NCBI GenBank assembly: GCA_028716225.1
Contig: JAQUQE010000016.1
Location: 1-35,686, forward strand
DNA length: 35,686 nucleotides
Direction of reading: 5' to 3'
Source: Dehalococcoidales bacterium
GTDB taxonomy: Bacteria; Chloroflexota; Dehalococcoidia; Dehalococcoidales; UBA5760
Part shown: positions 23,126-34,628 of the stretch, one piece after another
Layout: each line of letters begins with the position of its first letter
How positions within the stretch are numbered: position 1 is the stretch's first letter
Position numbers and translations under genes: made by a program
The notes under the pieces: generated by a model
Databases searched by the model: none
Seen by the model: only the letters and a program-made list of their open reading frames with translations
Told to the model about the DNA's origin: nothing

Positions 23126-24295
23126 ATGAAAAACAAAAAAATGCTAAAGATCATGATCGGCGTCTCACTGGTAGTAGTGATGGCAATTGCCATACCGCTG
23201 ACGACCGGATGTACCAGTCAAGCCCCGACACCGGAACCGACGCCCACTCCTACCCCGGGAGAACCGACACCGACTCCGGAACCGGCACAGGACCTGCCGA
23301 TATACGAGTGGCGAATCACCAGCCCCTTCGGTGCTCCGGACACTGAGGAGGACATGAGGTTAAACTACGCTGACATCCTGGAAGAGATGAGCGGCGGGCG
23401 AATCAAGGCCACGGTCTATGAACCGGGCGAGCTGGTCCCGGAGGGTGAAGTAGTGGCCGCCGTCAGGTCGGGCACCATTGACATCGGCTGGTGGTACGCT
23501 ACCGCCGGTGCCGAGACGCTCTTCAGGGACATCGAGTGCGGCATGCCGTTTGAGACATCCTGCCCCTCCGAGATGCAGAGTCTGTTCACAAGACGGGGGC
23601 TGGCAGAGCTTACTGCTGACTCCTACGCTGATATCGGCGTCCACTACATCAGAAACGCCATGACCGATCCCTTCAACGTGATCGCGACAAAACCGATTAC
23701 AAGCTATTCGGATTTTCAGGGTTTGAAGATGAACGCCACCGGACCGATGGCTCCTCCCTTTGTCGGGGCCGGCTGCTCAACAGTGGTCTTCCCCGTTGAA
23801 GAGTTCTACCTGACCGGTCAGACCGGTGTTGTCGACGCCCTCTTCTGGGCCGGGGCAACCGAGTACACCGGCATGAAGCTCTATGAGGTCTACCCGTATA
23901 TAGTAATGCCCTGCCTGGTCGACTGCTGTAACTCGTCAATACTGATGAACCAGGAACTGTGGGATTCGCTACCCTCCGATATCCAGGCTATTGTCTACTA
24001 CGCCACCGAGCACATGAGTGAACACTGTTTCATCAAGAGGTTCAACGGCCAGAGCACCGACATCAAGAACTGGGAACACATCATAACCTTGGACGACGAG
24101 TCGATCCAGAAGCTGTACGAGCATGAACTGGAGTAGTGGTACCGGCTAGCGACGCTGGATGCACGGAATGCCCAGGGAATCCAGATTCTGCTTGAGTACC
24201 AGCTCGAGCTGGAGGAGATGAACTTTACGCACCGTGCCTACAGATTGGACACGCAGCCGATCAAAGACCTCCTGGCACGTGTAAAAGCGCTCTAA
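23126..24295 (+). CDS. TRAP transporter substrate-binding lipoprotein, interrupted by in-frame TAG
   Basis: The gene starts with a lipoprotein signal (hydrophobic residues about 10-24, cysteine 29 in PLTTGC) and a Pro/Thr-rich linker (about 33-55) that tethers the domain to the membrane. The binding domain resembles DctP proteins: SGGRIKATVYEPGELV, AVRSGTIDIGWW, SDFQGLKM, TGQTGVVDALFWAG. A TAG at 24134-24136 would end it at 336 residues. The same frame then stays open for 52 codons to TAA 24293, including LDARNAQGIQILLEYQLELE, which looks like the usual C-terminal helices of the family. Read through, the mature domain has normal length; stopped at TAG, it is short. It may be a recent nonsense mutation, a sequencing error or readthrough. 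GAAAGGAG precedes the ATG. The Arg normally found in GLKxR is Asn203. Confidence 0.85.
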
Positions 24296-24424: not shown

Positions 24425-24937
24425 ATGCCCAGGGTATTAGCGAACTACGTACGATATATCGATACAATGAACCGGAAGGTGGGAGTGGGAGTCGGTTATG
24501 TCGTCCTCGTCATAATCGGTATCCTGCTCGTTGAAGCCATCCGAAGGTACGGATTTAACATGCCCACCGTATGGTCCATTGAAGTCTCGCAGTTTCTGTT
24601 CGGGGCCTACTTTATTGTCGGCGGCGGGTATGCTCTTCTCAGCGGCGGCATGGTCAGGATGGATATCCTCTACTCCCGGTGGTCGCCACGGAAGAGAGCG
24701 ATCATAGACGCTGCCATGTTTGTTTTCATGGTCATCTACTTAGTCGCTACTCTAATGGCATGTACCGAACATGCTATAATATCAACCTCTATGCTGCAAC
24801 ACAGCGGCAGCCCTTGGCGCCCTCCGCTATACCCGATCAAGATTATCATAACGATCGGAGTCTTCCTGTTGCTCCTGCAAGGAATATCCTGCTTCATTAG
24901 GGATATCGCTACTATTCGAGGAAAGCCACTACCATGA
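24425..24937 (+). CDS. TRAP transporter small permease (DctQ type)
   Basis: The 170-residue protein has four predicted membrane helices, at about residues 20-38, 50-72, 86-110 and 136-156, as expected for the small TRAP subunit. VWSIEVSQFLFGAYFIVGGGYAL-like sequence around the second helix and a GMVRMDI segment are typical. DctQ partners with the large subunit DctM and helps couple the binding protein to the Na+-driven carrier in the cytoplasmic membrane. ATG 24425 is chosen over 24404 since AAGGAG lies at 24414-24419. The end overlaps the large permease gene by four bases (ATGA). Confidence 0.91.
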   Translation: MPRVLANYVRYIDTMNRKVGVGVGYVVLVIIGILLVEAIRRYGFNMPTVWSIEVSQFLFGAYFIVGGGYALLSGGMVRMDILYSRWSPRKRAIIDAAMFVFMVIYLVATLMACTEHAIISTSMLQHSGSPWRPPLYPIKIIITIGVFLLLLQGISCFIRDIATIRGKPLP

Positions 24938-26247
24938 GTATACAGATAATTGCTTTAGTAATGTTCGCCTCAATGGCAATGCTTCTCATCAGCGGGCGTT
25001 ATATCTTCGTCGCCGTAGGCAGCATCGGTGCTATCTTTGCCATCGCCCTGTGGGGTACCGGCGGCATTGATATGGCCTTCTTCTCCGCCTACAGCTTCAT
25101 GAAGTGGTACGTTCTACTGGCCATCCCTCCCTTCATCTTTATGGGGTTGATTCTATCCAAGTCAGGAGTAGCCGACGACCTCTACGACATGATACATAAG
25201 TGGTTTGGCGGCATTGCCGGCGGCCTGGCCATGGGAACGATAGGCATCAGCGCCCTGATAGCCGCCATGGTCGGAGAGGCTACCTGCGGTACGGTGACGG
25301 CAGGTCTTATCGCCATGCCCGCCATGCTCAAGCGGAAGTACAACAAGCTGATGGTGACCGGGGTTGTCCAGGCAGGCGGCGCCCTCGGTTTTCTTATTCC
25401 GCCCAGCGTAGTCTTCATCATCTACGGGATAATCGCCAGGGTCTCCATCGGGCACCTGTTTCTCGCCGGCGCCATACCCGGCATCCTGTTGGCGGTGATG
25501 TACGTTATCTATATCGGCGTAAGGTGCCGCCGGAACCCCAGTATGGGTCCACCACTGCCGGTTGAAGAACGGGTCAACTGGAAAGGAAAATTCGTCTCGC
25601 TGAAAAGCGGTATTGCCCCCATAATCCTTATCTTTACCGTCCTCGGTCTGCTCTTTATGGGAGTAACCACCGTAATGGAATCTGCCGCGGTCGGAGCGGT
25701 AGGCGCTATAGTATGTGCCGCAATCCACCGGAAGCTAAGCTGGTCGGTTGTCAAGATAGCTATGGCGGAAACACTGAGAGTTTCCTGCCTCTTCCTCTGG
25801 ATTCTGGTAGCTGCCCTGCTTTTTTCTTCCGTCTATGATGGCCTGGGTGCCGTCAAGATTCTCGAGCCACTGTTCCTCTCTCTGGGAAACCCGGTATTAG
25901 TACTCGTGATGATGCAGGCTAGCTTTATCGCGATGGGGACATTCCTAGATGACACCGCAATGCTTCTTATCGTCGCCCCGCTTTACATCCCGATAGTGGC
26001 AACTCTGGGTTACGACCTGGTCTGGTACGGCGTCCTTTATGTAATTACCTGTGAGATGGCATACCTGACACCGCCATTCGGCTACACCCTGTTCATCATG
26101 AGAGGTATCGTTCCCAAAGAAATTACCATGGGGGATATCTACCGGTCGGTGATACCGTTCGTGATCATTCAGGGCGTCTGCCTGGCTCTGGTATTCGCCT
26201 TCCCGCAAATAGCCCTATGGTTGCCCAACCTGATTATGGGTGGGTAA
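24934..26247 (+). CDS. TRAP transporter large permease (DctM type)
   Basis: The 437-residue protein is hydrophobic throughout and has the normal length of the large TRAP subunit, with about 12 membrane segments. Family-typical sequences include LLAIPPFIFMGLILSKSGVA, GEATCGTVTAGLIAMPAM, LGFLIPPSVVFIIYGIIA, the region FLDDTAMLLIVAPLYIP and a C-terminal LTPPFGYTLFIM. The subunit carries the substrate together with Na+ down the ion gradient. It is translationally coupled to the small permease by an ATGA overlap. A strong inverted repeat follows 13 bases after the stop. Confidence 0.95.
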   Translation: MSIQIIALVMFASMAMLLISGRYIFVAVGSIGAIFAIALWGTGGIDMAFFSAYSFMKWYVLLAIPPFIFMGLILSKSGVADDLYDMIHKWFGGIAGGLAMGTIGISALIAAMVGEATCGTVTAGLIAMPAMLKRKYNKLMVTGVVQAGGALGFLIPPSVVFIIYGIIARVSIGHLFLAGAIPGILLAVMYVIYIGVRCRRNPSMGPPLPVEERVNWKGKFVSLKSGIAPIILIFTVLGLLFMGVTTVMESAAVGAVGAIVCAAIHRKLSWSVVKIAMAETLRVSCLFLWILVAALLFSSVYDGLGAVKILEPLFLSLGNPVLVLVMMQASFIAMGTFLDDTAMLLIVAPLYIPIVATLGYDLVWYGVLYVITCEMAYLTPPFGYTLFIMRGIVPKEITMGDIYRSVIPFVIIQGVCLALVFAFPQIALWLPNLIMGG

Positions 26248-27194: not shown

Positions 27195-27352
27195 TCATCT
27201 CCTCAACTCTAAATGGGCCCTATGACGTAATCCTTGCATAAACCGGCTGGCTACAGGTATACTGGAAACGAAGCCGACCCCCTATCAGTGTAAACTGAAT
27301 GGCGTCTATGGCTTATTACCGCAGTAGTTGGCTGCCCGAGAGGTGATTAACA

Positions 27353-27727
27353 GTGATTTTCGGCCGGAAGCGAAAAGGAAGCAGCACGCTAAAAGACAAC
27401 CTCGCGGAGTGGCGGGAAATAAGGGAAGGTAAGAGGATTGCTGTCGATCCGGACGAAGGGCAGGAAAAAGATGGCCAGTGCTTCGTTGTAACAGCAGTCT
27501 ACGGAACTCCACTGGCCCAAGAAGTAAACACCATGCGCTCCTTCAGGGATGAGTTCCTGTTGCGTTACAAGGCGGGCAGGCTGTTTGTCAGCACCTATTA
27601 CAGGGTAAGCCCTCCCGCAGCCCGATTCATATCCAGCCGCAGACACATGAGAAGCTTCCTGAGAACAGTGCTTCTGGCACCCATGGTGAGCATGGTAAAA
27701 ATGACCAGCAGCCGATGGTCACGCTAG
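27353..27727 (+). CDS. Small CFI-box-CTERM domain protein
   Basis: The 124-residue protein has a basic N-terminus, then GQCFVVTAVYGTPLAQEV, RSFRDEFLL, GRLFVSTYYRVSPPAA and a hydrophobic end with FLRTVLLAPMVSMVK. This matches the CFI-box C-terminal domain (family sequence CFIATAAYGSPL followed by FRD and YY..SP), found at the end of many secreted or membrane proteins of unknown role. Here the motif reads CFVVTAVYG and the domain stands alone. The start is GTG 27353 with GAGAGGTGA upstream. It ends 20 bases before the convergent LhgO-like gene. Function is unknown; the final hydrophobic stretch may sit in the membrane. Confidence 0.75.
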   Translation: MIFGRKRKGSSTLKDNLAEWREIREGKRIAVDPDEGQEKDGQCFVVTAVYGTPLAQEVNTMRSFRDEFLLRYKAGRLFVSTYYRVSPPAARFISSRRHMRSFLRTVLLAPMVSMVKMTSSRWSR

Positions 27728-27746: not shown

Positions 27747-28874
27747 TCAACTACCCAGTATCTCATCCACCAGCCGGCTGACATAACCGGCGATTGCTGG
27801 TGATGAGGTTAGTCCCGGTGATTCTATACCAACCAGATTAACGAAACCGGGTAGCCCTCTTTTGTACTCATGTTCTATTACGAAGTCACGCTGGCCCTCT
27901 CCTTTATCCTGAAGCATCGCCAGTATGCCTGATGTCTCGGGGGCTAAATCAGACGGCTCGATAAACGGCAGGGCTTTCATCATGCTTGACTCCAGAAAGG
28001 CGTACTTCCTGGAGTCATCAACCTTATAGCCTATCTCGTCAACGTAGTAGAAATGAGGGCCGAGACGTAGTCTCCAATCAACGTCGAAGCAAACATGCAC
28101 CCCGACACTGATATCCGTAGGCACAGGGTATATCAACCTGTTAAGCAGCTTATTCTTAACGCCGCTTACACTGTAATACTCCCCTTTACACCAGTGCAGG
28201 TGATATCCCGCCTCTTCCAAATCTATCCCCGCCATCTCAGCCACTTTGTCGCTATACAGTCCGGCACAATTTATGATTACCCTGCTTATGAAGGAAAAAT
28301 CACCTGACGCATCATTGACACTGATTTGATAGCCATCGGGCTGTTTTTCTATGCCGTTGACCTCGGTCTTATACACTACCTGCACGCCGTTTTCCCTGGC
28401 CCTGGCGAAAAAGTAGTTCATCAGGGCATAAGAGTCTACGATACCTGTAGTCGGTGAGAGGAATGCGGCCATTCCTTTCAAATTCGGCTCGAGCTGTCTC
28501 ATTTCCTTACCGGAAAGCATTTGCAGCGGGACACCGTTATCCCGGCCTCTTAGATATAGCTTTTCTAATTCACGGGATTCCATCTCGTTAGTGGCGACGA
28601 TTATTTTGCCACATTTCCGGCAGGCTATCCCGTTCTTTTCACAGAGTTCGTATAAAAGGCTGTTGCCTTCCAGACACAGCTTCGCTTTCAAGGAACCTCT
28701 GTCATAGTAGATACCGGCATGAACGACCTCGCTGTTACGGGAGCTCTGTTCCTGTCCGAACTTTTCATTTTTCTCCAGCAGATAGACCTCTCTACGACCC
28801 TTTGCTACCATTGAAGCTACGGCCAGCCCGACTACGCCAGCCCCAATGATAGTAACATCAACTCGATGCGCCAT
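27747..28874 (-). CDS. lhgO: LhgO-like FAD-dependent oxidoreductase (2-hydroxyacid type)
   Basis: The 375-residue protein is a DAO-family flavoenzyme. DVTIIGAGVVGLAVAS binds FAD, then come EQSSRNSEVVHAGIYYD, typical of L-2-hydroxyglutarate oxidase/dehydrogenase, SPTTGIVDSYAL, INCAGLYSDKVAEMAG and a C-terminal LVGIESPGLTSSPAIAGYV. LhgO oxidises L-2-hydroxyglutarate to 2-oxoglutarate and can pass electrons to a quinone or ETF. ATG 28874 is chosen because GGAG lies seven bases ahead; 28889 is an in-frame alternative. It is divergent from etfB, so shared regulation through the 290-base gap is possible. Other 2-hydroxyacid or glycerol-3-phosphate-like substrates cannot be excluded. Confidence 0.85.
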   Translation of the reverse strand: MAHRVDVTIIGAGVVGLAVASMVAKGRREVYLLEKNEKFGQEQSSRNSEVVHAGIYYDRGSLKAKLCLEGNSLLYELCEKNGIACRKCGKIIVATNEMESRELEKLYLRGRDNGVPLQMLSGKEMRQLEPNLKGMAAFLSPTTGIVDSYALMNYFFARARENGVQVVYKTEVNGIEKQPDGYQISVNDASGDFSFISRVIINCAGLYSDKVAEMAGIDLEEAGYHLHWCKGEYYSVSGVKNKLLNRLIYPVPTDISVGVHVCFDVDWRLRLGPHFYYVDEIGYKVDDSRKYAFLESSMMKALPFIEPSDLAPETSGILAMLQDKGEGQRDFVIEHEYKRGLPGFVNLVGIESPGLTSSPAIAGYVSRLVDEILGS

Positions 28875-29164
28875 ATGACAACTCCTCAAATTAATATGAA
28901 ATAACCCGCAAATTCGCGCCTAAGCAGGTCGACCAGTGTCTTTTCCATGTAGCACTGGCGTTTTGCCGGACGTGTCACAATTATAACACATCGGCGTACT
29001 GCTTGAGCTTGAAAGACTGCCCCGGCACCCCATTTCAGCAACTATCAAGCGTTACTGATAGATTGTCCTTTATGATTCCGTGCATTCCGTTGTACAATAC
29101 CTTAATACAATACCTCATGGTTATATCTTTACGACGACCCGTATTACGTAGGAGATGCTGACCA

Positions 29165-29974
29165 ATGACCGCCGTCAGAATGATCGTCTGCTGTAAGCAG
29201 GTACCCGACCCCGAAGCACCGCCGGAGAGCTTCAGGATTAACCCCGAACTTAACAGAATAGTGCTACCGCCGGGCGTATCGGCAGTAATTGACCCTTATG
29301 CTGAACGTGCTTTGGAAGCGGCGCTCAGAGTTAAGGATGATCAGGGAGGCACAATCACCGTACTGAGCCTGGGTACCAACCTCTTACCGGATGTGGTAAT
29401 AAAACCCCTGTCCATGGGGGCTGATGAGCTAATCCTGCTCGATGACGAAGCCTTCGCCGGGGGTGATAGCTGGTCAACAGCCTATGCACTATCGATGGCC
29501 ATCAAAAAAGTAGGCGACTATGACCTTATCTTCTGCGGCCGGCAGGCTTCGGATTGGGACGCCGGGCAGGTGGGCCCGGGCATCGCTGAGATGCTGGGGC
29601 TGCCCCTCGTAACCATCGCCAGAAAGATAACGGTCGGCAACGGGAAGGCAACGGTTGAGAAGGTCACCGATGATGGATATGAAGTGGTTGAGGTATCCCT
29701 GCCCGCCCTGGTCACGGTAAGCAATGAAGTCGGTGAGCCCCGGTACCCTACCATAAAGGGAATAATGGGGGCCAGGAAGAAAGAGCCGGTTATCTGGAAA
29801 CCAGACGACATCGGGGCCGAATCTTCCTGGATAGGTGCCGCGGGTTGCCGCACGAAGCTGCTGAAGCTATTCCAGCCGGTTCACGAAGGGAAATGTGAAA
29901 TCATCGAAGGTGACAGCCCCGGGGAAGCGATAGCTAACCTGGTTGCAAAACTGAAGGAAGCCAGAATAGTATGA
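29165..29974 (+). CDS. etfB: Electron transfer flavoprotein, beta subunit
   Basis: The 269-residue protein begins with VRMIVCCKQVPDPEA and INPYAE-like sequence (IDPYAERALEAAL), both standard for EtfB. The conserved signature for the nucleotide site is present as IFCGRQASDWDAGQVGPG, followed by AEMLGLPLVT, and LPALVTVSNEVGEPRYPTI is the family C-terminal motif. With EtfA it forms a soluble dimer that takes electrons from flavin dehydrogenases; some types bind a second FAD here and bifurcate electrons, but the sequence alone does not prove that. It opens an operon with etfA, an HdrBC-like gene, hdrA and an MvhD-like gene. A 91-base gap separates it from etfA. Confidence 0.95.
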   Translation: MTAVRMIVCCKQVPDPEAPPESFRINPELNRIVLPPGVSAVIDPYAERALEAALRVKDDQGGTITVLSLGTNLLPDVVIKPLSMGADELILLDDEAFAGGDSWSTAYALSMAIKKVGDYDLIFCGRQASDWDAGQVGPGIAEMLGLPLVTIARKITVGNGKATVEKVTDDGYEVVEVSLPALVTVSNEVGEPRYPTIKGIMGARKKEPVIWKPDDIGAESSWIGAAGCRTKLLKLFQPVHEGKCEIIEGDSPGEAIANLVAKLKEARIV

Positions 29975-30065
29975 ATGCAAAGGAATTGGGACCCGCTTTG
30001 AGCGTCCTGCACCGTAGTTAAAGGGCAGGTCCCGATGAGCAAATACGAAGAGAGGGTAGTTAGCA

Positions 30066-31079
30066 TTGGCTGAATATAAAGGGGTGATGATCTTCGGCGA
30101 AGTCAGAGAGGGGAAACTGGCGGCAGTAACTACGGAACTGCTGGGCTGCGGCCGGAACCTGGCTGATGCGCTGGGTCAGGAATTATATTGCCTGCTGGTA
30201 GGCAATGATATCACCAGCCTGGCCGGGGAAGCAATTGCCTATGGCGCAGACAGGGTATACGTAGTCGATACCCCACCAATGAAGGACTACGACACAGATT
30301 TATATCTATCAGTCTCGGAAAAGGTAGCGAGGCAGGTAATGCCCTGCATTGTACTTTTCGGACAGACCGCTATCGGCCGTGACCTGGGGCCCTGCCTGGC
30401 CTTCCGGCTGGGTACGGCAATCTCCACGGACTGCGTCGAGCTGGCTATCGAACCTGGCTCAAAACTGTTGCTACAAACCAAGCCTGTTTACGGTGACAAT
30501 GCCCGGGCTACCTTTACCTGTGAGTCCTATCCCCAGATGGCTACGGTTAGAGCCAGGGTAATGTCCTCTCCGGAGCGAGACGGTTCCAGAGAGGGGCAGA
30601 TTATTAATGTTGAGGCTTCCTTAGACGCTCCGTCCGTAAGAACTAAGGTAATCAAGAGGGTGGTCGAAGAATCGACAGGGATAAAGCTTGAGGATGCTAA
30701 CGTGGTAGTCTGCGGAGGCAGAGGCATCGGCAGCGCTGAAGGTTTTAAGAAGCTGGAGAAACTGGCTGAGATATTGAAGGGTGCCGTGGGTGCCAGTAGA
30801 CCGCCATGCGACAACGGCTGGGTGTCGAATAGCCTGCTAGTCGGCCTGACGGGTAAGATCATCGCCCCCGACCTTTATATCGCTGTTGCCCTCTCCGGCT
30901 CCAGTCAGCATATGACCGGTTGCTCTGGAGCTAGGAATATCGTGGCGATAAACAAAGACCCCGAAGCTAACATATTCAAGGAAGCGACGCTGGGGATAAT
31001 CGGGGACTGGGAGGAGTTGCTGCCCGTTTTTACCAACAAGATTGAGGAACTAATGGCAGGACGGAAAAAGGACAGGTAG
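30066..31079 (+). CDS. etfA: Electron transfer flavoprotein, alpha subunit
   Basis: The 337-residue protein starts at TTG 30066, with AGAGGG ahead; family-like sequence (GVMIFGEVREGKL) follows at once. The C-terminal FAD domain has VVVCGGRGIGSAEGF, ASRPPCDNGW, APDLYIAVALSGSSQHMTG and VAINKDPEANIF. The usual QVGQTGK element reads LVGLTGK, so both glutamines are leucine, which may change the flavin environment. It pairs with EtfB and supplies the main FAD for electron transfer. The stop codon TAG lies nine bases before the next gene, consistent with one operon. Confidence 0.94.
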   Translation: MAEYKGVMIFGEVREGKLAAVTTELLGCGRNLADALGQELYCLLVGNDITSLAGEAIAYGADRVYVVDTPPMKDYDTDLYLSVSEKVARQVMPCIVLFGQTAIGRDLGPCLAFRLGTAISTDCVELAIEPGSKLLLQTKPVYGDNARATFTCESYPQMATVRARVMSSPERDGSREGQIINVEASLDAPSVRTKVIKRVVEESTGIKLEDANVVVCGGRGIGSAEGFKKLEKLAEILKGAVGASRPPCDNGWVSNSLLVGLTGKIIAPDLYIAVALSGSSQHMTGCSGARNIVAINKDPEANIFKEATLGIIGDWEELLPVFTNKIEELMAGRKKDR

Positions 31080-31087
31080 ACATCGGA

Positions 31088-32248
31088 ATGGAGACGAGCG
31101 CACATCTGGTAACTCCGCTCAAAGAAGTGGCGGACATCATAAATGAGGAAGGCGGCGAAATCCTCAATCTATGCTACCAGTGCGGTACCTGCACGGCAGT
31201 GTGCCCGTGGAATAGGGTGAGGGATTTTATCGTCCGCCGTATAATACGCCGGGGCCAGCTGGGCCTGATTGATTTCGAAGGTGAGGATATATGGCTGTGT
31301 GCTACCTGCAACAGCTGCGTGAAGCGATGCCCCCGCGGTGTGGAAATAGTAGACGTTATGCGGGCCCTGCGCCGGGTCGTTACCGAGATGGGTATTGCCC
31401 GGGTCCCCGATTCACTACGACTCACCATCAAGAATATCTCCGCAACGGGCAATCCGTTAGGCGAAGCTCCGGATAAGCGGGCCGATTGGGCCAAAGACCT
31501 TGACGTGAAGCCATATAGCGAGGGAACCGAGATATTGTACTTCCCCTGCTGCATCCCGGAATATGATGCCAGTGTTCGGAGGGTGGCCCGGGCTGCCGTC
31601 AATATCCTGAAAAAAGCCGGAGTCGACTTCGGTATACCGGGTAGTAAGGTAAACTGCTGTGGTGAAAGTGTCCGTAAAGCCGGCGACGAGAAGGTCTTCG
31701 AGCGCCTCGCCAGGAGTAACATCCGTACTTTTGCCGAAATGGGAGTTAAAAAGGTGGTTACCTCATCCCCACACTGCTACCACACCTTCAGGAATGAATA
31801 TCCCGGGCTGGGAGGTGACTTCGAGACTATTCATTTATCCCAGTATCTGCTTGAACTTATCAGGGAAAACCGCTTAAGCTTTAGCAGAGAAGTAAACAAA
31901 AAGGTTGCCTATCACGACCCCTGCTATCTGGGGCGTTATAACGATATCTACGAGGAGCCGCGCCAGGTACTGGAGAGCATCCCCGGTCTGGAATTGATCG
32001 AACTGCCGGATTGTCGGGAAAACAGCTTGTGTTGCGGTGGCGGCGGCGGCCGGATATGGATGGAAACCAAAAGCGGCGAGAGGTTTTCCGACATGCGAGT
32101 AGAACAGGCTCTTGCTGCAGGCGCTGATGTCCTGGCCGTGGCATGCCCCTACTGTATGCTCAACTTCGACGATAGCGTGACGACTATGGAAAAGGGTGAT
32201 TTTATCGAGATCAGGAGTATTTCAGAATTAGTAAGCGAAGCAATCTAG
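31088..32248 (+). CDS. HdrD/HdrBC-like iron-sulfur protein with two CCG domains
   Basis: The 386-residue protein has an HdrC-like part with two [4Fe-4S] motifs, CYQCGTCTAVCP (Cys29, 32, 35, 39) and CATCNSCVKRCP (Cys71, 74, 77, 81), fused to an HdrB-like part with two CCG domains. The second CCG domain is complete: Cys279, Cys315-316 (SLCCGGGGG) and Cys353/356 (CPYC). The first has Cys154-155 and Cys190-191 but reads SPHC at 227-230, with Ser where a Cys is usual. In heterodisulfide reductases these domains bind the noncubane clusters that reduce disulfides. It follows etfA by eight bases and precedes hdrA. There are no membrane helices, so it is soluble. The substrate need not be CoM-CoB. Confidence 0.91.
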   Translation: METSAHLVTPLKEVADIINEEGGEILNLCYQCGTCTAVCPWNRVRDFIVRRIIRRGQLGLIDFEGEDIWLCATCNSCVKRCPRGVEIVDVMRALRRVVTEMGIARVPDSLRLTIKNISATGNPLGEAPDKRADWAKDLDVKPYSEGTEILYFPCCIPEYDASVRRVARAAVNILKKAGVDFGIPGSKVNCCGESVRKAGDEKVFERLARSNIRTFAEMGVKKVVTSSPHCYHTFRNEYPGLGGDFETIHLSQYLLELIRENRLSFSREVNKKVAYHDPCYLGRYNDIYEEPRQVLESIPGLELIELPDCRENSLCCGGGGGRIWMETKSGERFSDMRVEQALAAGADVLAVACPYCMLNFDDSVTTMEKGDFIEIRSISELVSEAI

Positions 32249-32256
32249 CCAGCAGT

Positions 32257-34224
32257 ATTACGGGAAATAAACCGCGCATCGGCGTATATGTCTGTCACTG
32301 CGGCAGCAATATCGCCGGAACTGTAGATACGGAAGAACTAACCGGGTTCGCCCGTGGTTTAGACTCGGTGATAGTAGCCCGCGACTATGTCTTCATGTGC
32401 TCCGAGCCCGGGCAGGAAATGATCGGCAAAGATATCAGGGACCTGGGCCTTAATCGGGTAGTGGTAGCTGCCTGCTCTCCGATAATGCACGAGTCCACCT
32501 TCCGCAGAACATGTCAGAAAGCGGGGCTGAATCCGTATTTAATCGAAATAGCCAATATTCGCGAGCAGTGCTCCTGGGTGACCGAGAACAAGCAGATGGC
32601 GACGGAGAAGGCCAAAGCCCTGCTGAATGCCGCTGTAAAGCGGGTTTACTATCACCAACCTCTGGAAACCAGGAAGATACCGTTTAATCCCAATACTCTG
32701 ATAGTAGGCGGCGGCATCGCCGGTATCAGAGCCGCGCTGGAAATCGCCGATTCCGGACACAAGGTCTATCTGGTCGAACGAAGCCCCAGTATCGGCGGAC
32801 ATATGATGCAACTGGACAAGACGTTCCCCACCCTGGACTGCTCGGCTTGCATCCTCACCCCAAAGATGACTGAAGCAGGAAATCATCCCTATATTGAGCT
32901 CATGAGCTACAGCGAGGTGGTAGAAGCTTCGGGTTACATCGGGAATTTCAGGATTAGAATTCGAAAAAAGGCACGGTATGTCAACGGCGACAGGTGTAAC
33001 GGCTGTGGTTTGTGTCAGGAGAAATGCCCCTCGAAGGTCGATAGCGAGTTTGAGGCCGGCATGGGTAAGAGGAAGGCTATCTATACCCCGTTCCCCCAGG
33101 CCGTACCCAACATACCGGTCATCGACGCCGATCACTGCACCTATTTCCTGAAAGGTACCTGCCGTCTTTGTGAGGAGGTCTGTGAGGCGGGTGCGATCGA
33201 TTTCGGGCAGGAAGATGAAATAGTCGAGGTGGAGGCAGGCTCAATAATCTTAGCCACCGGATACAGCGTGTTCGACCCTGTTGCCATCCACCAGTATGGC
33301 TACCGGCGACTGGATAACGTTATTACCAGCCTCGAGTTCGAGAGGCTGGTCAACTCATCCGGTCAGACGGGCGGCAATATAGTGCTGAAAGACGGCTCCG
33401 TCCCCCGGAGCATTGCTATCATTCAATGTGTGGGCAGTCGGGACAGGAACTACCATGATTACTGCTCCCGGGTGTGCTGTATGTACGCCCTTAAGTACGC
33501 CCACCTGATAAAAGAGAAAACCGGCGCCGAAGTGTATCAGTACTATATCGATATGCGCTGCTTCGGCAAGGGCTACGAGGAATTCTATGAGCGTATTGCC
33601 GGCGAAGGGGTCAGCTTCATACGCGGCAAGGTGGGTGAAGTTACCGACAGGGCCCTTAATGACGAGGAGAAGGGTAGACTGGTTGTGGTAGCCGAAGATA
33701 CTCTGCTGGGATCGATGATAAGGGTGCCGGTGGATATGGTTATCCTGTGTACCGCTATGGAACCGCAGCAAGATGCTGAGGCCGTGGCCCGGCTCTTCAA
33801 TATCAGCCGGAGTGCCGACGGCTTCTTTTTGGAGAGGCACCCCAAGCTGGATCCGGTAGCCACCAGCAGCGAGGGTATTTTTGTGGCCGGTTGCTGCCAG
33901 AGCCCCAAGGACATTCCCGATACCGTCGCTCAAGCCTCGGCAGCGGCGGCTCGCATTCTGTCCCTGATCAGTAAAGGTGAGGTAGAGATCGAGGCAGCTA
34001 TCGCCAGCATTGATGAGAAGCTTTGCTCCGGATGCGGGATATGCGGATCCCTCTGCCCTTACAGTGCTATCTTGCTCGATGAGGAAAAGAAGTTTTACAA
34101 AGTAAATGAAGCCTTGTGTAAAGGCTGCGGCACGTGCGTTGCTGCCTGCCCTGTCAGCGCTATTACCGGCAGGCATTTTACCGCCGAGCAAATCATGGCT
34201 GAAATCGAGGGCCTGTTGATATGA
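32257..34224 (+). CDS. hdrA: HdrA-like flavin and iron-sulfur electron-transfer subunit
   Basis: HdrA carries the FAD that can bifurcate electrons in Hdr complexes. Motifs: N-terminal IGVYVCHCGSNIAGTVD, VGGGIAGIRAALEIADSG for FAD, FPTLDCSACILTPKM, ferredoxin motifs CNGCGLCQEKCP and CRLCEEVCEAGAI, the middle signature IQCVGSRDRNYHDYCSRVCC, and C-terminal CSGCGICGSLCP and CKGCGTCVAACP. A start at GTG 32368 gives 618 residues but drops the conserved CHCG segment, which lies in frame just upstream. No ATG, GTG or TTG precedes it after the last in-frame stop; ATT 32257 is the best candidate and gives 655 residues. The true start is unproven. The end overlaps the next gene by four bases. Confidence 0.93.
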   Translation: MTGNKPRIGVYVCHCGSNIAGTVDTEELTGFARGLDSVIVARDYVFMCSEPGQEMIGKDIRDLGLNRVVVAACSPIMHESTFRRTCQKAGLNPYLIEIANIREQCSWVTENKQMATEKAKALLNAAVKRVYYHQPLETRKIPFNPNTLIVGGGIAGIRAALEIADSGHKVYLVERSPSIGGHMMQLDKTFPTLDCSACILTPKMTEAGNHPYIELMSYSEVVEASGYIGNFRIRIRKKARYVNGDRCNGCGLCQEKCPSKVDSEFEAGMGKRKAIYTPFPQAVPNIPVIDADHCTYFLKGTCRLCEEVCEAGAIDFGQEDEIVEVEAGSIILATGYSVFDPVAIHQYGYRRLDNVITSLEFERLVNSSGQTGGNIVLKDGSVPRSIAIIQCVGSRDRNYHDYCSRVCCMYALKYAHLIKEKTGAEVYQYYIDMRCFGKGYEEFYERIAGEGVSFIRGKVGEVTDRALNDEEKGRLVVVAEDTLLGSMIRVPVDMVILCTAMEPQQDAEAVARLFNISRSADGFFLERHPKLDPVATSSEGIFVAGCCQSPKDIPDTVAQASAAAARILSLISKGEVEIEAAIASIDEKLCSGCGICGSLCPYSAILLDEEKKFYKVNEALCKGCGTCVAACPVSAITGRHFTAEQIMAEIEGLLI

Positions 34225-34628
34225 GCTTCGAGCCCGTAATCACCGTTTTTATGTGTAACTGGTGCTCCTACCGCGGCGCTGACCTGGCAGGGACTTCCCG
34301 CATGAAATACGCCCCCAATGTTCGGCCGATAAGGGTTAAGTGCAGCGGCCGGGTGGAGCCGACCTTCATCGTGAAGGCACTTCAGGCCGGTGCCGACGGG
34401 GTGCTGGTCCTTGGTTGCCATCCCGGGGATTGCCACTATACCGACGGCAACTACAAAGCAATGCGACGCATGGCATTGCTTACCCGGATGCTCGAGCAGC
34501 TCGGCATCGAAAAAGAGCGCGTATCCCTGGACTGGGTCTCTGCCTCCGAGGGTAACCGGTTTGTCTCAATCGTTAACGACATGACAGCCAGGATAAGAAA
34601 GCTCGGTCCCCTGGTCAAGGAATCATAA
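34221..34628 (+). CDS. MvhD/FlpD-like [2Fe-2S] electron-transfer subunit
   Basis: The 135-residue protein belongs to the MvhD (hydrogenase iron-sulfur subunit) family, which links an electron-donating enzyme to HdrA. Motifs: FMCNWCSYRGAD, VKCSGRVEPTFI, and LVLGCHPGDCHYTDGNYKA. These five cysteines hold the [2Fe-2S] cluster. Despite the family name, no hydrogenase gene is present, so the partner may be the Etf pair or another dehydrogenase. The ATGA overlap with hdrA at 34221-34224 shows tight coupling. It is the last gene of the operon and converges with the following minus-strand gene. Confidence 0.94.
   Translation: MSFEPVITVFMCNWCSYRGADLAGTSRMKYAPNVRPIRVKCSGRVEPTFIVKALQAGADGVLVLGCHPGDCHYTDGNYKAMRRMALLTRMLEQLGIEKERVSLDWVSASEGNRFVSIVNDMTARIRKLGPLVKES

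Follow-up and report, generated by a model that had tools for sequence, protein, structure and literature searches.

Organization of the dctPQM locus

The window analysed here is a stretch of 35,686 nucleotides from a Dehalococcoidales bacterium (contig JAQUQE010000016.1). It carries, on the forward strand, a truncated gene for a TRAP transporter solute-binding protein of the DctP family with a lipoprotein-like signal (23126–24136). The open reading frame (ORF) runs from an ATG at 23126 to a TAG at 24134–24136 and encodes 336 amino acids. Past this TAG, the same frame continues for 52 sense codons (24137–24292) before it reaches a TAA at 24293–24295; ORF reading thus confirms the in-frame TAG and the 52 open codons reported in the first-pass annotation of this DNA. 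The 336-residue product matches the Pfam DctP family (PF03480; E = 4.6e-27, 95.5 bits against a gathering cut-off of 23.4) and lies above the cut-off of NF037995, the NCBIfam model for TRAP binding proteins.

The two permease genes lie directly downstream, both intact and on the forward strand. The small subunit gene, dctQ (24425–24937), matches PF04290 (E = 1.9e-18); its listed ORF opens at an upstream TTG (24404), and the ATG at 24425 is likely to be the start, as judged from the nucleotide sequence. The large subunit gene, dctM (24934–26247), matches PF06808 (E = 1.5e-69) and is above the cut-off of TIGR00786. The DctP matches and the adjoining dctQ and dctM therefore show that the window gene encodes the binding protein in a dctPQM operon for a TRAP transporter. 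In its family match, the dctPQM gene order and the N-terminal lipoprotein-like signal, it resembles the DctP-family TRAP proteins (PF03480; for example, PDB 4uab and 2zzv).

Further along the window, a FAD-dependent oxidoreductase gene on the opposite strand (27747–28889) precedes a set of genes at 29165–34628 comprising etfB, etfA, a CCG-domain iron–sulphur protein (HdrD-like), an HdrA-like flavin/iron–sulphur protein and a small ORF resembling MvhD. This set by the TRAP operon looks like an electron-transfer or bifurcation module, the Hdr and Mvh names being assigned by eye. A small ORF at 27353–27727 (within the region 27340–27727) has no Pfam match; the ORF of a congeneric genome (G001, below) that overlaps this region meets a window TAA at 27430, in a different frame.

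The segment beyond the TAG

Of the genomes compared that belong to the same genus as that of the window (G000), only two have the orthologue of the window dctP (orthologues L063 and L064), and a scan of genome contigs returned these two relatives alone. In Dehalococcoidia bacterium UBA5760 (G001; DIFA01000024.1), the gene is whole, with a 407-codon open frame; in Dehalococcoidales STD1_192 (G006), it lies in two pieces at contig ends (JAQUOC010000085.1 and JAQUOC010000034.1). By tblastn, identity to the window protein is 93% over the whole protein for G001 and 97% over residues 174–389 for G006, and the part after the TAG aligns to both with no insertions or deletions. In the codon alignment, codon 337, which is the TAG at 24134–24136 in the window, is GAG (Glu) in both relatives, and in both the frame continues with WYRLATLDARNAQGIQILLEYQLELEEMN... 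until a TAA at the position of the window's TAA (24293–24295), which is thus the original stop, common to the orthologues. In a search with the complete orthologue, the window copy alone was reported with an internal stop, exactly one and a TAG; the orthologues had none.

More distant comparisons agree. Paralogues from the same genome and from the congeners align beyond the TAG site, to about query residue 368–373, and the alignment of 4uab, the closest solved structure, extends to query residue 366, some 30 residues past the site. No homologue ending naturally at the TAG position was found among the orthologues and the more distant paralogues compared. An AlphaFold2 model of the intact orthologue had a mean pLDDT of 34 and was given no weight. 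Together, the orthologues that reach the same TAA and the paralogues and 4uab that align past the TAG show that the 52-codon segment (24137–24292) did not stay open by chance but is the usual C-terminus in this family. The window copy lacks the complete C-terminal part that the orthologues and the solved relatives have: unlike the orthologues, it ends at codon 337 without their last 53 residues. The window gene is a member of the DctP family by descent, and its allele is truncated.

Constraint on this segment was compared with that on the rest of the gene. Relative to G001, pN/pS is 0.124 upstream of the TAG and 0.104 downstream; relative to G006, the values are 0.078 and 0.076, respectively. 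Relaxed constraint 3′ of the TAG left no sign in pN/pS, although 52 codons offer few changes and a brief relaxation could escape. The segment has been under purifying selection equal to that on the rest of the gene for almost the whole period since the lineages split. Values near 0.1 both before and after the TAG therefore argue that the extension is a true protein end, normally constrained until very recently. The proposal that the extension is the usual DctP C-terminus, first made on the appearance of its residues, is thus upheld both by the indel-free alignment to the two congeneric orthologues and by the equal pN/pS on either side.

TAG is an ordinary terminator in this genome

An intact and conserved frame after a TAG would also be expected if the stop were read through, and in having an in-frame TAG with conserved sequence downstream, the window dctP resembles pyrrolysine-containing or amber-suppressed genes. 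About 116 kb of G000 was aligned to G001 and checked for interrupted genes, using non-overlapping ORFs, about 107 of which had an orthologue. TAG ends 27–28 of these orthologous ORF pairs in both species, and the window's genome encodes release factor 1, the factor that reads TAG. TAG is an ordinary terminator in this genome, and recoding of TAG, previously judged unlikely because the codon serves as a usual stop nearby, is ruled out by these conserved TAG-ended pairs together with the release factor.

An Rfam model located 65 tRNA places, and reading them with ARAGORN gave no CTA anticodon, a result that applies to a draft genome (156 contigs, 96% complete, estimated 3% contamination) and assumes the standard tRNA shape of the model. 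RNA 3′ of the TAG has no unusual structure (z = −0.25). Near-cognate suppression, or a suppressor tRNA, with some full-length protein made, is very unlikely in view of these results, the presence of release factor 1, the conserved use of TAG as a terminator and the lack of a stop at codon 337 in the relatives; the conservation on which it draws is predicted equally by a recent mutation. A species-specific site of partial readthrough, giving both a short and a full-length binding protein, is highly improbable.

Elsewhere in the genome (L075:4499–5896; G000 contig C29:14498–15895), a tight array contains nine or more tRNA genes (Leu, Leu, Trp, Ser, Tyr, Ser, Lys, Lys and Gln), whose Rfam scores are weaker than those of the other tRNAs. 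The array, which has no CTA anticodon, sits at the end of a contig close to an HNH endonuclease and a DNA methyltransferase, and resembles a tRNA-carrying phage or other mobile element.

Insertion of pyrrolysine at the TAG has in its favour solely the identity of the codon. In the window's genome and eight congeners, pyrrolysyl-tRNA synthetase (PylS) gave only matches below the cut-off (at most 26.3 bits against 178.15), and a control search of 14 genomes returned one above it, most of the others giving weak sub-cut-off matches. The residue at this position is Glu in the relatives, and DctP does not belong to the methylamine methyltransferases. With no PylS above the cut-off and no CTA-anticodon tRNA found, pyrrolysine is refuted within the limits set by a genome that is 96% complete, and we consider it extremely improbable. 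The window's genome thus differs from those with pyrrolysine-containing or amber-suppressed genes, in that neither PylS nor a CTA tRNA was found, release factor 1 is present and the stop is not conserved. Of the four options raised by the first-pass annotation, suppression and pyrrolysine are therefore left unsupported, whereas recent nonsense mutation and assembly error are both favoured by the GAG of the relatives and the normal C-terminus downstream.

A recent nonsense change or a consensus error

Where G001 and G006 agree, their shared state was taken as ancestral; on this basis, one G-to-T substitution on the window branch separates TAG from GAG. Our preferred explanation, which we hold to be probable, is that this very recent nonsense change (Glu337 to TAG) was truly carried by the sampled cells, as a mutation or a strain variant. 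The syntenic 12-kb block aligns at 93%, and over 5,488 aligned sites the window branch has 162 substitutions against 160 on the G001 branch; this lack of a general excess speaks for a sound assembly. Among the approximately 107 orthologous ORFs (about 116 kb), only the dctP stop takes a sizeable portion away from a gene with a family assignment; of three further nonsense interruptions, two fall in ORFs of fewer than 100 codons and one lies 7 residues short of the end.

With dctQ and dctM intact and no decay apart from the TAG, either the event is very recent or the base is a consensus error; a true null allele could only be very young, which counts against a real mutation. Alternatively, the TAG may be absent from the organism, the real gene having GAG and the T arising in the metagenome-assembly consensus from low-depth sequencing error or chemical DNA damage. 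The GAG at codon 337 of the relatives, the lack of relaxed selection in the downstream frame and the fragmented, slightly contaminated state of the draft described above are all in keeping with such an error, as is the mildly raised number of G>T and C>A changes along the window branch (24 of 162, against 12 of 160 on the G001 branch). Codon 367 (24224–24226), 3′ of the TAG, is TTT (Phe) in the window copy only and TGG (Trp) in both relatives, that is, two adjacent G-to-T changes (a tandem GG to TT). The excess and this tandem change speak against a real mutation and might hint at sequence damage, but are too weak to decide. With substitutions not raised overall, and with almost no other broken genes, which argues that the assembly is not generally error-rich, we regard a consensus error as a serious possibility but not as the expected outcome.

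If the nonsense change is real, as we favour, an ordinary dctP of a dctPQM operon would have acquired a single G-to-T change, converting the GAG of Glu337 to TAG. Translation would end there, and the protein would lose the last 53 of its 389 residues, predicted to be the terminal helices of the binding-protein fold. The binding protein would then be non-functional or impaired in this strain.

Implications

The window dctP is like other nonsense-mutated bacterial alleles (recent pseudogenes): it is one base from the sense codon of its close relatives, its downstream frame is intact and the genetic code is normal, and no difference from such alleles was observed. The case is thus of an ordinary kind, a broken gene copy or a sequence error. 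Its significance is slight, concerning one solute-binding protein of a metagenome-assembled Dehalococcoidia genome in which the change is either a recent nonsense mutation or a wrong base. A very young nonsense mutation and a consensus error are both expected to look just like this, with an in-frame stop and a conserved C-terminus behind it, and two close relatives settle such cases quickly.
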